NCBI GenBank assembly: GCA_025060695.1
Contig: JANXBH010000024.1
Location: 1 to 5,008 of the forward strand
DNA from: Caldifarciminota bacterium
GTDB lineage: Bacteria; Hydrothermota; Hydrothermia; LBFQ01; DSFT01
Length of the DNA: 5,008 nucleotides
Direction of reading: 5' to 3'
Shown here piece by piece: positions 1 to 4,810 of the stretch (the stretch's first letter is position 1; every line of letters begins with the position of its first letter). Under the pieces are notes generated by a model. The model made no database searches and was not told the origin of the DNA. It worked only from the letters and a program-made list of their open reading frames with translations. A program made the translations under genes and the position numbers.

Positions 1-142
1 TATCTCTCTCGCGTCCAAGAATACCTGCTACTAATCCAACAAGTGTAGTCCTTGGAGGAAAGTAATAACTTATAGCAGTTGCATTTGAATAAAATGCCCT
101 AAAGTGTGCGAATTTGCCCTTTAGTTCAAATGAAATTAACAT
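1..142 (-). CDS. cas5: Cas5 (type I-B Cascade subunit), N-terminal part, runs off the window edge
   Basis: Reading the minus strand from the ATG at 142-140 gives 47 codons that continue past base 1. The protein begins MLISFELKGKFAHFRAF and goes on through SNATAISYYFPPRTT to a GLVAGILGRERD segment. This is the conserved Cas5 N-terminus: a first RAMP/ferredoxin-like beta strand, the aromatic YYFPPRTT stretch and the small-residue G-L-V-A-G-I-L-G helix. In the family, Cas5 caps the 5' handle of the crRNA and contacts Cas8 and the first Cas7; in most type I systems it is not the crRNA-processing nuclease (that is Cas6). The start overlaps the cas7 stop by 17 nt and has no obvious Shine-Dalgarno, so translation is probably coupled to cas7. 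Most of the gene is outside the window, so nothing can be said about whether it is intact. Confidence 0.92.
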   Translation of the reverse strand, partial: MLISFELKGKFAHFRAFYSNATAISYYFPPRTTLVGLVAGILGRERD

Positions 143-1079
143 ATACTTGACTTAGTTTATTTTTAATCTCATTTTCTAAATAGCTCATATTAGTGTCAAG
201 CCTTACTACCAACTTACTTATTTTATGTTGTATATTCAATATTCTATCTATAAGCCTTGATATATCTAATTCAAAGTCTCTTGTATTTTCAATTCCTTTT
301 TTCTTGTCAATATCTACAAACCTTCTTAAATCTCCAAGTAATACAAGATTGTCATTGTACTCAATTCTCATATATAAAAGTGGATGATGACCTATTTTTG
401 AACGTGTTGAAGTTTCACATAGTATTGCTTCAAATATATTTTCATCAAGCTTTTTTATATCATCATAAGTTAAACCCGTATATTCTGCAAGTTTTCCATT
501 TATCCTACCATAAAAAGAAATTAGTGAGTACTTTACTATCCAAAATTTTCCTATTGAACCACCTGTTTCCTTTGCACCTGCAAAATGACTAGTAATACTT
601 GGACTATTTAATATTTCTACCTCATTTAGAGAATATCCCCAAGTAAATTGAAGAGGACCTGTAAGTGTAATTGAACTACCCTTGCTACCTTGTTCCTTTA
701 CTTGTTTCTCTACTTGTTCCTTTACTTGTTTCTTTCCTTGTTTCTTTAAAGGAAGTGTTACACCAAAAAATCTTATATCTATAAATTCCTTTAGCAATTC
801 AAGGTCTGCACCCTTTTTCCCTTTTTTTTGTGCTATATTATTTGCCCTTGTAGTTGCATCTACTGTTGAACCATCATCCTCTTTTCTAACAAAAATATCC
901 ATACCTAAGTGTTTGTAAAAGAAATCCCTAATAAATCTCTTTAGCCTTACATCGCTTACAATATTTCTACTAGTAGCATAGTCCATCCTTGGTTTATTTT
1001 CGTTATCGGGATCCCCATTAGGATTTGTATATTTTGCTTCATATATTAGCAAAATCTCACTATTGTTTATTTTGTTCAT
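126..1079 (-). CDS. cas7: Cas7/Csh2, type I-B Cascade backbone protein
   Basis: 317 aa. The N-terminus SEILLIYEAKYTNPNGDPDN followed by NKPRMD (about residues 7-33) is the Csd2/Csh2-type Cas7 signature. Other conserved blocks are FIDIRFFGVTLP (99-110), SITLTGPLQFTWGYS (136-150) and the HHPLLYMRIEY segment (231-241). Cas7 polymerises along the crRNA spacer to form the helical Cascade backbone. Residues 112-131 are an unusual low-complexity insert of five K/E/Q-rich tetrapeptides (KKQG, KKQV, KEQV, EKQV, KEQG) encoded by a 12-bp tandem repeat, placed just before the conserved SITLTGP block. The start is well defined: a perfect AAAGGAGG lies 5 nt upstream, inside the end of cas8b, and the two genes overlap by 20 nt. 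The stop overlaps the cas5 start. The strong ribosome site fits the need for many Cas7 copies per complex. Confidence 0.95.
   Translation of the reverse strand: MNKINNSEILLIYEAKYTNPNGDPDNENKPRMDYATSRNIVSDVRLKRFIRDFFYKHLGMDIFVRKEDDGSTVDATTRANNIAQKKGKKGADLELLKEFIDIRFFGVTLPLKKQGKKQVKEQVEKQVKEQGSKGSSITLTGPLQFTWGYSLNEVEILNSPSITSHFAGAKETGGSIGKFWIVKYSLISFYGRINGKLAEYTGLTYDDIKKLDENIFEAILCETSTRSKIGHHPLLYMRIEYNDNLVLLGDLRRFVDIDKKKGIENTRDFELDISRLIDRILNIQHKISKLVVRLDTNMSYLENEIKNKLSQVYVNFI
687..746 (-). repeat. 12-bp minisatellite, five units, inside cas7
   Basis: On the plus strand, units such as ACTTGTTCCTTT, ACTTGTTTCTCT, ACTTGTTTCTTT and CCTTGTTTCTTT follow each other with a strict 12-bp period, differing by one to three bases. 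On the coding strand they give five tetrapeptides of the form (K/E)(K/E)Q(V/G). A 12-bp period keeps the reading frame whatever the copy number. Confidence 0.85.
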
Positions 1080-1464
1080 CTTGCCCTCCTTTTGTCATTA
1101 TTCTATGAGTTTCAAAAGCATATCCTGAAATTATATAGTATGTATTTTCTAAAGGATTTAAATCCCAAGATTTCACATGTTGATTAAATAGTTCTTTACT
1201 TTCACTATAAAACTTTTCAGCGGAATATAATTCCCTTTGTTTGATTTTTTCAAAAACTTGAATATATAAGTTTTTCACTTCCTGTATATTCATACCATTG
1301 AAGTTTATTTTATTCAATACAGGTTTGTATCCGTAGTCTTTGTATTCTAATGCGCCTATTTTAGCAATAGCAACTCCAAGCAAGAACAAGGCTTGCTCCT
1401 TCGGGCTAAGTGAACATTTTTGCATATATTCCCTATAATCATCCAAATGATTATCCAATCTCAT
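1060..1464 (-). CDS. cas11b: Cas11b, predicted small Cascade subunit from an internal start within cas8b
   Basis: Inside cas8b, in the same frame, codons for K-G-G-S-A create AAAGGAGG at 1479-1472, exactly 7 nt before ATG 1464. Translation from there gives 134 aa, starting MRLDNHLDDYREYMQKC and ending at the cas8b stop. The segment is predicted mostly helical (SPKEQALFLLGVAIAKIG, then EVKNLYIQVFEKIKQRE), as expected of Cas11. It is known for type I-B, I-C and I-D systems that the small subunit is made by internal initiation in the cas8/cas10d gene. Cas11 lines the Cascade belly and stabilises the displaced DNA strand. No separate cas11 gene is visible. What is seen here is the ribosome site, start and length; that the product exists in this organism is inference. 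Unlike full-length Cas8b, this product is unaffected by the upstream frameshift, provided the operon is transcribed. Confidence 0.72.
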   Translation of the reverse strand: MRLDNHLDDYREYMQKCSLSPKEQALFLLGVAIAKIGALEYKDYGYKPVLNKINFNGMNIQEVKNLYIQVFEKIKQRELYSAEKFYSESKELFNQHVKSWDLNPLENTYYIISGYAFETHRIMTKGGQDEQNKQ

Positions 1465-2772
1465 AGCACTTCCTCCTTTTTCTTCCTCTAAAACTTTTAA
1501 AAAAGTTAATAACTGATTTGTTTTTATGATGTATCTAACAAGGTCAGTATTAGAATTTTTATACTCCTCTACTATGTGATATTGTTTATTTTCAAAATAT
1601 ATACTCTTTGCACCAAGCACAAAGTCAGATATTAAGCTTTCATAAGCTATAGGATAGTTATTTAGTATATGAACGAATAAGTCAACTATTTTTCTTATAT
1701 CAATTAGCTTTCCACCTGAAACTCTTGAAGGAACAAGAAAATATATATCTCCAAGCGAATTAAGTTTATATTCTTTTTCTAGAAATCCAAATATTTCTCC
1801 TATTATATTGAAATCTTCTATCACTTTTTCAATCCTCCCAATGGGCACATCTCTTACTATATTATAAACCTTAAATTGAGACCTTTCCTGTTCGTAAAAT
1901 ATGTAATTCAGATTAAAATAGTTTTTGTCAATAATTTGAATATAATTATTCAATTTATTTTTAAATTTCTGATATTCAAATAATTCAAAAAGGTTTTTGT
2001 TTATATCCTTTACTTCATTGCTCCAATGCTCCAAATGTTTAATACTAAATTCAACCTGTTTAATAAACTCAGGTATTACAAGGTAGTTTATCTTTCCTAT
2101 TTTTCCAGAAAGTTCATTTAGAATGAAATTTTGTCCTTTTATGAGATTAACATAACAATCTCTACAAACCGCAAAATTACCATGCCAATTATCACTAAGC
2201 TTTTGAGAAAATCCTATTTTATCGTTTATATAAATTTTTAACTTTAACCTTTCAAAACTATCGTAGTATTCATCAACGTTCTTACCACACACATAGCATA
2301 CTATTCTATTGCCTTTTTTAAGTTTTTCCTCTAAAATCTTCTTTTTTATTAAATTTAGGTATTCCTCATTTTCCCAAATTGGTTCACCATCTATTCTAAT
2401 AGCATAAAATACGACATTTTTATAATTTTCTAAATCCTTCAGGCCCTCTCTTTTGTCATTTTTCAGTGAGTATATTTTTACTTTATTTTCATCCTCTTTC
2501 TCTTCCTCGTAAAAAATTCTAATAACCTCTTCAACTTTATCTTTTAAATCTCCATTTTCAAGCTCCTTGGCTAATGAAATCCAAAGTGAGTATTCCTCGC
2601 CTTCAATAAGTTTTTCTTTAAGTTTTTCTTTACCCTTAAAAACTACATAGAATTGATTTGACTTTCCAGTTAGCCCCAATTCTACAAAATTGTATTCTTT
2701 TTCCTTTCCTTTGCTATAATCTATAGATTTCATTTCAATTTTTCCTTCTCTCAGTATCAAAGTTAATTTCAA
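1060..2772 (-). CDS. cas8b: Cas8b (Csh1/TM1802 family), Cascade large subunit; main reading frame, lacks its N-terminus by frameshift
   Basis: This is the main open frame of the large Cascade subunit, which in type I-B recognises the PAM and contacts Cas5 and target DNA. Numbered from the TTG at 2772 it has 570 aa. C159-x2-C162 (CYVCGK) and C203-x2-C206 (CRDC) form the zinc-finger-like motif of the TM1802/Csh1 family. The C-terminal SPKEQALFLLGVAIAKIG and KPVLNKINFNG segments (from about 456) form the helical domain homologous to the small subunit. The family normally has about 50 more N-terminal residues, and these are found immediately upstream in another frame (2735-2887). Removing one base from the A5 run at 2739-2743 would give about 608 aa, a normal length. 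Possible starts for this frame as it stands are TTG 2772 (AAAGG 8 nt upstream) or ATG 2733 (AGAAGGA upstream, one base after the TGA of the upstream frame). Family assignment is firm; the native start and intactness are not. Confidence 0.9.
   Translation of the reverse strand: MKLTLILREGKIEMKSIDYSKGKEKEYNFVELGLTGKSNQFYVVFKGKEKLKEKLIEGEEYSLWISLAKELENGDLKDKVEEVIRIFYEEEKEDENKVKIYSLKNDKREGLKDLENYKNVVFYAIRIDGEPIWENEEYLNLIKKKILEEKLKKGNRIVCYVCGKNVDEYYDSFERLKLKIYINDKIGFSQKLSDNWHGNFAVCRDCYVNLIKGQNFILNELSGKIGKINYLVIPEFIKQVEFSIKHLEHWSNEVKDINKNLFELFEYQKFKNKLNNYIQIIDKNYFNLNYIFYEQERSQFKVYNIVRDVPIGRIEKVIEDFNIIGEIFGFLEKEYKLNSLGDIYFLVPSRVSGGKLIDIRKIVDLFVHILNNYPIAYESLISDFVLGAKSIYFENKQYHIVEEYKNSNTDLVRYIIKTNQLLTFLKVLEEEKGGSAMRLDNHLDDYREYMQKCSLSPKEQALFLLGVAIAKIGALEYKDYGYKPVLNKINFNGMNIQEVKNLYIQVFEKIKQRELYSAEKFYSESKELFNQHVKSWDLNPLENTYYIISGYAFETHRIMTKGGQDEQNKQ
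1085..1092 (-). promoter_or_regulatory. Shine-Dalgarno site for cas7
   Basis: AAAGGAGG on the coding strand, 5 nt before the cas7 ATG at 1079, embedded in the K-G-G codons near the end of cas8b. It fixes the cas7 start and is as strong as the site for Cas11b. Confidence 0.85.
1472..1479 (-). promoter_or_regulatory. Internal Shine-Dalgarno site for Cas11b
   Basis: The coding strand reads AAAGGAGG, fully complementary to the 16S rRNA anti-Shine-Dalgarno core, followed by a 7-nt spacer and ATG. It lies more than 1.2 kb inside cas8b, so it has no role in starting full-length Cas8b. Confidence 0.75.
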
Positions 2773-2887
2773 TTATTAAGCCTTTATCCTTGGTTTTTGT
2801 ATTCTCCTCTTTTATACTCTCTACATAGGATTTAATTATGTCTGTTCTTTTATCTAATTCGCCTACTTGTATTATCCCCCTTAACAT
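2735..2887 (-). CDS. cas8b: 5' fragment of cas8b, out of frame with the main part by one base
   Basis: From ATG 2887 the minus strand encodes 50 aa, starting MLRGIIQVGELDKR and reaching KGLIIEINFDTERRKN before TGA at 2737-2735. Its opening (ML-x-x-I-I-x-x-G-E) resembles the usual N-terminus of Cas8b/TM1802 proteins, and GLIIEINFD corresponds to the strand that normally leads into the KIEMKSIDY segment of the main frame. The frame is lost at AGG-AAA-AAT-TGA. Dropping one A from the A5 run gives AGG-AAA-ATT-GAA and joins the two parts without loss. AAGGA lies only 2 nt before this ATG, so the ribosome site is poor. The frame is open for 15 codons further upstream but has no other ATG there. I read this as the true N-terminus of Cas8b, displaced by a natural mutation, a sequencing error, or a deliberate split. 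Homology is judged by eye. Confidence 0.72.
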   Translation of the reverse strand: MLRGIIQVGELDKRTDIIKSYVESIKEENTKTKDKGLIIEINFDTERRKN

Positions 2888-3075: not shown

Positions 3076-3567
3076 ATGGTAAACGGAACGTTAATTTGGT
3101 ATTATTATATTTGCAAGAGACAAGTTTGGCTAATTTCCCGCTCAATTGGTTCTGACCAAGAAAATGAACTTATGATACTTGGAAAGCATATATTTGACAT
3201 TTTTAAGAAAAGACATAAGTTAGGTTTAAAAGAGATAGTAATTGATAATAAAATAAAGTTAGATTATGTAAAAGATAAAATAATAGTAGAAGTTAAGAAA
3301 AGTTCAAAGTATTTACAGGCATCAAAAATGCAACTATGTTTTTATTTATATTATCACAAGAAGTATAAAAACCTTAGTTTATCTGGAAAGCTCGTTATAC
3401 CAGAAGAAAATAAAATCATAGATATAGCTTTAGACGAAGATATAGAATCAGAAATAGAAAGTGCAATTTCTGATATACAAAATATTATAAATCAAGCCTT
3501 ACCACCAAAACCTATAAAAATTCAATATTGTAGAAAATGTGCCTATAAAGATTTATGTTGGAGTTAG
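3076..3567 (+). CDS. cas4: Cas4, RecB-like Fe-S nuclease of spacer acquisition
   Basis: 163 aa, the usual length for type I-B Cas4. The opening NGTLIWYYYICKRQVWLISR is the family signature with the first cluster cysteine (C13). The RecB-type nuclease motifs follow: H38 in GKHIF, D63 in KLDYV, E72-x-K74 in VEVKKSSK, and QLCFYLYYH around 86-94 (Q-x3-Y). C152-x2-C155 and C161 at the C-terminus complete a four-cysteine [4Fe-4S] site. In the family, Cas4 works with Cas1-Cas2 to choose and trim prespacers with the right PAM and orientation. No Shine-Dalgarno precedes the ATG, and an AT palindrome touches it. The frame is open upstream to 3025 but contains no ATG, and the signature begins right after this Met, so the start is well placed. 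The cas1 ATG follows directly after the stop. Confidence 0.95.
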   Translation: MVNGTLIWYYYICKRQVWLISRSIGSDQENELMILGKHIFDIFKKRHKLGLKEIVIDNKIKLDYVKDKIIVEVKKSSKYLQASKMQLCFYLYYHKKYKNLSLSGKLVIPEENKIIDIALDEDIESEIESAISDIQNIINQALPPKPIKIQYCRKCAYKDLCWS

Positions 3568-4542
3568 ATGCGTAAAAGTTTATATATTTTCAGAAGTGGG
3601 AAAATATACAGAAAAGAAAATACTATATATTTTGAAAATGAAAAAGAAAAAAAGAGTTCTCCTGTAAATGCCATTTTAGATATCCATATTTTTGGAGAGG
3701 TAGATTTAAATAAGAGATTTTTAGAGTTTGCTACTAAAAATAAAATATGTATCCATTTTTACAATAGTTCTAAGTATTACATTGGCTCGTTTTATCCAAG
3801 AGAATTTTATAATTCTGGCTTTATTATTCTTGAGCAAGTTAAACATTATTTAGAACTTGAAAAAAGATTGTTTTTAGCGAAAAGTTTTGTGCTTGGCTCA
3901 ATTTTAAATATTATGAAAAATCTTAGTGCTTATAATTTAAAGGATAAGGAAGAGGAAATTAAGGAGTTTTTGAAAAGTTTAGAAAATGCTAAGTCAATTG
4001 ATGAAGTTAGGGCAATTGAAGGAAATGCAAAGAAAATATACTATCAGACATTCAATAATATTATTAAAAACGAAGATTTTAGAATGCATCAAAGAACTAA
4101 AAGACCTCCAGAGAATTCAATAAATGCACTTATAAGTTTTGGAAATAGTTTGATTTATACTACCACTTTAAGCCAAATATATAGAACATATTTAGATCCA
4201 AGAATAGGTTATTTACATGAAGCAAACTACAGAAGGTTTTCACTAAATTTAGATATATCAGAGATTTTTAAACCTATAGTAGTTGATAGGGTAATATTTT
4301 CACTGCTAAACAAAAGACAAATTAAATCTGAGCATTTTAGAAGTGAGTTAGAGGGTATATATTTAAATGAAGAAGGTATGAAAATTTTTATAAAAGCATT
4401 CAATGACAAACTTTCTACTACAATAAGGTACAAGAATTTAGGAAATGTTAGCTATAGAAGACTAATTAGGATTGAATGCTATAAGCTATATAAACATTTT
4501 ATAGGAGAGGAGATTTATAAGCCTTTTGTAATAAAAGAATGA
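3568..4542 (+). CDS. cas1: Cas1 integrase, type I-B
   Basis: 324 aa, full length for the family. The N-terminal beta domain carries the type I-B features DIHIFGEVDLNKRFLEFA (about 38-55) and FYPREFYNSGF. The helical catalytic domain has the metal ligands E151 (VRAIEGNAK), H217 (GYLHEANYRR) and the acidic pair D229/E232 in LDISEIFKP. Nothing looks damaged. Cas1 forms the integrase complex with Cas2 and inserts new spacers at the leader end of the array. The ATG directly follows the cas4 stop, with GGAG 4 nt upstream, so translation is likely coupled. The stop is 1 nt before the cas2 start. Confidence 0.97.
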   Translation: MRKSLYIFRSGKIYRKENTIYFENEKEKKSSPVNAILDIHIFGEVDLNKRFLEFATKNKICIHFYNSSKYYIGSFYPREFYNSGFIILEQVKHYLELEKRLFLAKSFVLGSILNIMKNLSAYNLKDKEEEIKEFLKSLENAKSIDEVRAIEGNAKKIYYQTFNNIIKNEDFRMHQRTKRPPENSINALISFGNSLIYTTTLSQIYRTYLDPRIGYLHEANYRRFSLNLDISEIFKPIVVDRVIFSLLNKRQIKSEHFRSELEGIYLNEEGMKIFIKAFNDKLSTTIRYKNLGNVSYRRLIRIECYKLYKHFIGEEIYKPFVIKE

Positions 4543-4543
4543 T

Positions 4544-4810
4544 ATGTTTGTAATTTTAGTTTATGATGTAGAAGAAAAAAGAGTTTATAAGGTTCACAAG
4601 ATATGTAGTAAATATCTTACTTGGGTCCAAAATAGCGTTTTTGAAGGAGAAATAACAGAGGCTCAATTAAGAATATTAAAGGATGAATTAAAGGAAATTA
4701 TTGATAAAACAAAGGACTCAGTAATAATTTATAAATTCAGGACCAAAGCTTATTTTGAAAGAGAAGATATTGGTATTAAAAAACCAAGTAGTGAAGACTA
4801 CTTTATCTAA
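4544..4810 (+). CDS. cas2: Cas2, structural partner of Cas1
   Basis: 88 aa, typical size. The start MFVILVYDVEEKRVYKVHKI is the Cas2 first strand with the conserved D8, followed by the SVFEGEIT segment (31-38) and the KDSVIIYKF strand (58-65) of the ferredoxin-like fold. Cas2 dimers bridge two Cas1 dimers during spacer integration; nuclease activity is reported for some members but is not needed for acquisition. The gene begins 1 nt after cas1 and has no clear ribosome site, which suggests coupling to cas1. It is the last gene before the candidate leader. Confidence 0.96.
   Translation: MFVILVYDVEEKRVYKVHKICSKYLTWVQNSVFEGEITEAQLRILKDELKEIIDKTKDSVIIYKFRTKAYFEREDIGIKKPSSEDYFI

Follow-up and report, generated by a model that had tools for sequence, protein, structure and literature searches.

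A predicted Cas11b small subunit within cas8b of a type I-B CRISPR operon, with an internal ribosome-binding site conserved among homologues

Background

Does the large-subunit gene of this type I-B CRISPR system also encode the small subunit, Cas11b, from an internal start codon of its own, and how does such a product stand to the frameshift found near the beginning of the same gene? In types I-B, I-C, and I-D, the large-subunit gene is known to yield Cas11 by internal translation (PMC11096372; PMC11899642; PMC10212523; PMC7684278; PMC13199841), and three of these papers cite McBride et al. 2020 for it (PMC10212523, PMC7684278, PMC13199841). For type I-B, this literature (PMC11096372, PMC11899642) agrees with an earlier note on the same DNA, which had taken internal translation of the small subunit as established and had placed a Cas11b start inside cas8b. 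Here we evaluated that reading and conclude that cas8b is very probably a gene within which a second gene lies, with the internal start at ATG 1464 yielding Cas11b.

The cas locus

The window (i.e., the whole stretch of DNA analyzed, 5008 bases) is an entire contig of a metagenome-assembled genome (MAG) of 1.5 Mb in 77 contigs. Its minus strand carries an effector operon, cas8b-cas7-cas5, which is truncated within cas5, and its plus strand carries cas4-cas1-cas2, with the following features:

1..142, minus strand: start of cas5, cut at the contig end
126..1079, minus strand: cas7 (Csh2), 20-nt overlap with the cas8b stop, own AGGAGG at 1090-1085
1060..1464, minus strand: in-frame cas11b predicted in the 3' end of cas8b (134 codons plus stop)
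1060..2733, minus strand: cas8b main open frame of type I-B (TM1802/Csh1 family), beginning at the first ATG past the frameshift
1472..1479, minus strand: internal Shine-Dalgarno (SD) AAAGGAGG, 7 nt from the ATG
2735..2887, minus strand: cas8b N-terminal fragment in another frame, ending at TGA (frameshift), clade profile positions 20-67
3076..3567, plus strand: cas4
3568..4542, plus strand: cas1 (type I-B)
4544..4810, plus strand: cas2

The 570-aa cas8b frame matched PF09484 (1.7e-71), TIGR02556 (1.8e-54, above the cut-off), and TIGR02591 (4.1e-41), and the match to the TM1802/Csh1 family of Cas8b was full-length, with PF09484 aligned over positions 39-601 of 602; a direct sequence match for Cas8b in the PDB was not found. 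Its closest named relatives belong to MAGs with the labels WOR-3, Thermotogota, and Aquifex, and a search for closer relatives in plasmids and viral contigs gave no close match. Elsewhere in the genome, contig C2 opens with the last part of a cas5-like frame, after which comes cas3 (L078 1-2667), and the window contig and C2 probably adjoin at cas5, while cas6 (L080 3141-3689) lies on contig C1, apart from the other cas genes and with no CRISPR array in the bases searched around it. Since cas3 and cas6 are thus present besides the cas genes of the window, the type I-B system looks complete in this genome.

Two further features of the contig were observed. Within cas7, a 12-base repeat present five times (689-748) encodes a KQ/KEQV-rich insertion that is absent from the cas7 of two relatives (L045, L046), and the stretch from cas2 to the contig end (4811-5008) is very A/T-rich and may be the leader of a CRISPR array at which the assembly broke off.

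A predicted internal start site in the 3' part of cas8b

On the minus strand, the sequence around the site reads ...GAA AAA GGA GGA AGT GCT ATG AGA..., in which AAAGGAGG (1479-1472) is followed by a 7-nt spacer (1471-1465) and ATG (1464-1462), and the frame from this ATG shares the end of cas8b at 1060 (stop 1062-1060) and encodes 134 aa (15.9 kDa). The SD, spacing, in-frame ATG, and product length given in the earlier note are therefore exact in the sequence, and the predicted product is encoded in frame in the 3' part of cas8b of a type I-B operon.

The strength of this site is unusual both for the window and for the genome. AGGAGG followed after 4-9 nt by ATG occurs at two places in the window, the ATG 1464 site and the cas7 start (1079), where shuffling expects 0.13, and the internal SD pairs with CACCUCCUU at -10.9 kcal/mol, similar to that of cas7 (-11.4), while there is almost no SD at the starts of cas8b, cas5, cas4, and cas2. 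The cas8b reading frame contains five ATG codons, of which ATG 1464 has by far the best SD, and the complementary 16S 3' end GGATCACCTCCTT is present in this genome. Across 20 stretches of the same genome (~290 kb), an SD as strong as -10.9 precedes 2 of 830 internal in-frame ATGs (0.24%), compared to 8.8% of first-ATG gene starts. Local mRNA openness at the internal start was average. Elsewhere in the genome, a zinc-ribbon protein gene (L083 15030-16391) also has an in-frame ATG (codon 224) with a strong SD (AGGAGG) upstream of it, and this internal site may be chance, as it lies in a hydrophobic, membrane-like segment (ILILGGIFMF).

The frameshift in cas8b

As the earlier note had reported, cas8b is frameshifted. 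Positions 2887-2735 encode the Cas8b N-terminus, which a two-sequence search matched to clade profile positions 20-67 (E 1.6e-6). From profile position 64 onward the match continues in the main frame, so that the first ~46 residues are out of frame with the remainder. The frameshift is real in the contig and is perhaps an assembly error in the MAG; the 557 codons past it stay open, which indicates a recent break or else an error.

Two explanations start from this frameshift, and we consider both unlikely, to about the same degree. In one, the frameshifted cas8b is decaying as a pseudogene and retains the internal site as a mere relic, as might be suspected from a break that none of the other 38 distinct homologues shares, all of them being open in one frame; against decay, however, the open codons downstream retain strong profile scores, cas7, cas4, cas1, and cas2 are intact in the window with cas3 and cas6 in the genome, and an assembly error in a MAG would give the same picture as a pseudogene. 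In the other, programmed frameshifting, or a shortened Cas8b translated from ATG 2733, provides both subunits despite the frameshift. AGAAGGA does precede ATG 2733 (-5.0 kcal/mol), but a start there would lose the N-terminal residues encoded upstream, and the lack of a frameshift at that point in any relative means that there is no sign of a programmed site.

The earlier note had further suggested that Cas11b could persist without full-length Cas8b. The geometry of this suggestion stands, as ATG 1464 lies ~1.3 kb downstream of the frameshift, but its premise depends on a frameshift seen in one MAG contig. We know of no job for Cas11b by itself. It would be very surprising if the frameshift were genuine and maintained, such that this lineage makes Cas11b, and perhaps a Cas8b that starts at ATG 2733 and lacks its N-terminus, without full-length Cas8b, in an altered Cascade. 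Broken cas8b genes in two other genomes (G011, G378) were considered as cases of Cas11 kept without Cas8b and rejected, as the interruptions proved to be runs of N in the assembled sequence.

Conservation of the internal site in homologues

In the window gene alone, codon choice is uninformative: 48% of the synonymous shuffles had an SD just as strong (p 0.48), because Lys-Gly-Gly in the usual codons of an A/T-rich genome is AAA GGA GG. We therefore compared 39 distinct TM1802-family Cas8b genes, the window gene included. At the same domain boundary, an SD-preceded start was found in 38 of the 39, with a strong SD (<= -9 kcal/mol) in 35, whose start codons are ATG (32), GTG (2), or TTG (1); one gene (L051) has no SD at the boundary and three (L040, L060, L061) have a weak one. 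The predicted internal products are 125-160 aa long (median 135). The earlier note had named the lack of a conserved internal ATG or SD in homologues as what would speak against its reading, and the comparison found the opposite.

The nucleotides of the SD are conserved and the peptide over them is not. The SD core falls in codon phase 0 in 19 genes, phase 2 in 16, and phase 1 in 3, and the peptide varies among KGG, GG (TGG or IGG), KRR, KKEG, FEEV, FQE, and MEV. Even within the closest clade, L045 and L046 have AAA GGA GGT (KGG), and L047 has AAA AGG AGG (KRR), retaining AAAAGGAGG with a one-base shift and an ATG at almost the same distance. This change of codon phase with a different peptide is explained by conservation of a ribosome-binding site and cannot be explained by a protein linker, and in the sequences compared the binding site and start codon are conserved beyond what the peptide would require.

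Codon usage points the same way. For 22 representatives at <45% identity, compared with 2000 synonymous shuffles, the mean SD was -9.54 versus -6.23 in the shuffles (z -6.9), and 15 sites were strong versus a shuffle mean of 6.7 and maximum of 13; among the other in-frame ATGs of these genes, only 3 of 163 had a strong SD. It is thus very unlikely that AAAGGAGG is a by-product of a Lys-Gly-Gly hinge in an A/T-rich genome, with no start and only full-length Cas8b made: AAA and GGA are the usual codons of the window cas8b, shuffles restore its SD half the time, and a flexible linker would be expected at the domain boundary where the site is found, but homologues retain the SD without the peptide (KRR, KKEG, EEV, MEV, FQE), the start codon at the matching distance is conserved as well, and the shuffle test of the representatives stands against it. 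In addition, in 34 of 37 homologues the internal SD surpasses the best candidate at the presumed own gene start, which fits a need for an excess of the subunit, the Synechocystis complex having a Cas11b:Cas8b ratio of 3:1 (PMC11096372).

Predicted fold of the product

A structure model of the 134-aa product is an all-helical bundle (pLDDT 85), which bears out the earlier description of the product as the helical C-terminal domain, at the level of a predicted model. In VIA-align, each of the ten best solved chains was either type I-C Cas11 or a Cas8c C-terminus (Z 5.7-7.3; next row 4.4), so that the model resembles the alpha-helical bundle of solved Cas11, while Foldseek alone gave no significant E-values, with type I-C Cascade chains in three of its four best PDB rows. 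Model residue 8 pairs with residues 1-2 of the free Cas11c chains in VIA-align, and the predicted start thus agrees with the start of a solved small subunit. The fold match is supporting evidence and not proof, as such Z values can arise between unrelated helical bundles. Together, conservation in homologues and the Cas11c-like predicted fold support the reading of ATG 1464 as a putative internal Cas11b start.

Comparison with known systems

The type I-B system of Synechocystis sp. PCC 6714 produces Cas11b from an internal ribosome-binding site near the cas8b 3' end, and this Cas11b is identical to the Cas8b C-terminal domain and present in three copies in Cascade (PMC11096372). The window resembles it in the position of the site and in the domain encoded, whereas the Synechocystis Cas8b is of the Cmx8/Myxan kind and that of the window is TM1802/Csh1. 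In Haloferax volcanii, mass spectrometry, together with a mutated Met codon, demonstrated an in-frame start inside cas8b (PMC11899642); the likeness is again the in-frame internal start, although this Cas11b is 28.9 kDa, archaeal, and preceded by a weak SD (GGATG). Type I-C Cas11c (PDB 7KHA, 8DEX; PMC7684278) is the closest solved fold and has the same gene-within-gene arrangement, but shares ~10% sequence identity with the window product and belongs with a different large subunit family.

The type I-B1 system of Thermotoga maritima, whose genome matches PF09484, the Pfam family of the window Cas8b, encodes a 15.1-kDa Cas11 in cas8b1 that is required for Cas8b1 to stay in Cascade (PMC13199841). 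In E. coli, its predicted internal site proved non-functional and yielded no Cas11, presumably due to a suboptimal RBS and/or start codon (PMC13199841). This failure in a system of the same subtype counts against our reading of the window; the SD and ATG of the window, in contrast, are both near consensus.

We found no published account of SD codon-phase shifts in the TM1802 family in a search that did not include McBride et al. 2020, and this observation may not be new.

Proposed mechanism and significance

By analogy with the relatives named above, we propose how Cas11b would be translated and assembled, in what number, and to what end. Ribosomes starting at the 5' end would produce the large subunit Cas8b, and others, recruited by the internal AAAGGAGG, would initiate at ATG 1464 and produce just the helical C-terminal domain. 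This Cas11b would then line the belly of Cascade in several copies, beside the same domain of Cas8b, and hold the displaced non-target strand. Judged from its sequence, the window cas11b appears to be a well-supported further case of the established internal translation of Cas11, with a near-consensus site.

Profile libraries assign 1060-1464 only as part of Cas8b, and cas11b is therefore missed by annotation. A reconstitution with cas8b recoded or transferred to another host would then lack a required subunit, as was the case for T. maritima. The change in codon phase of the SD offers a simple, alignment-based, and experiment-free test for hidden Cas11 starts in TM1802 genes, and as the TM1802 Cas8b family is large and mostly unstudied, this test could be applied across the family.
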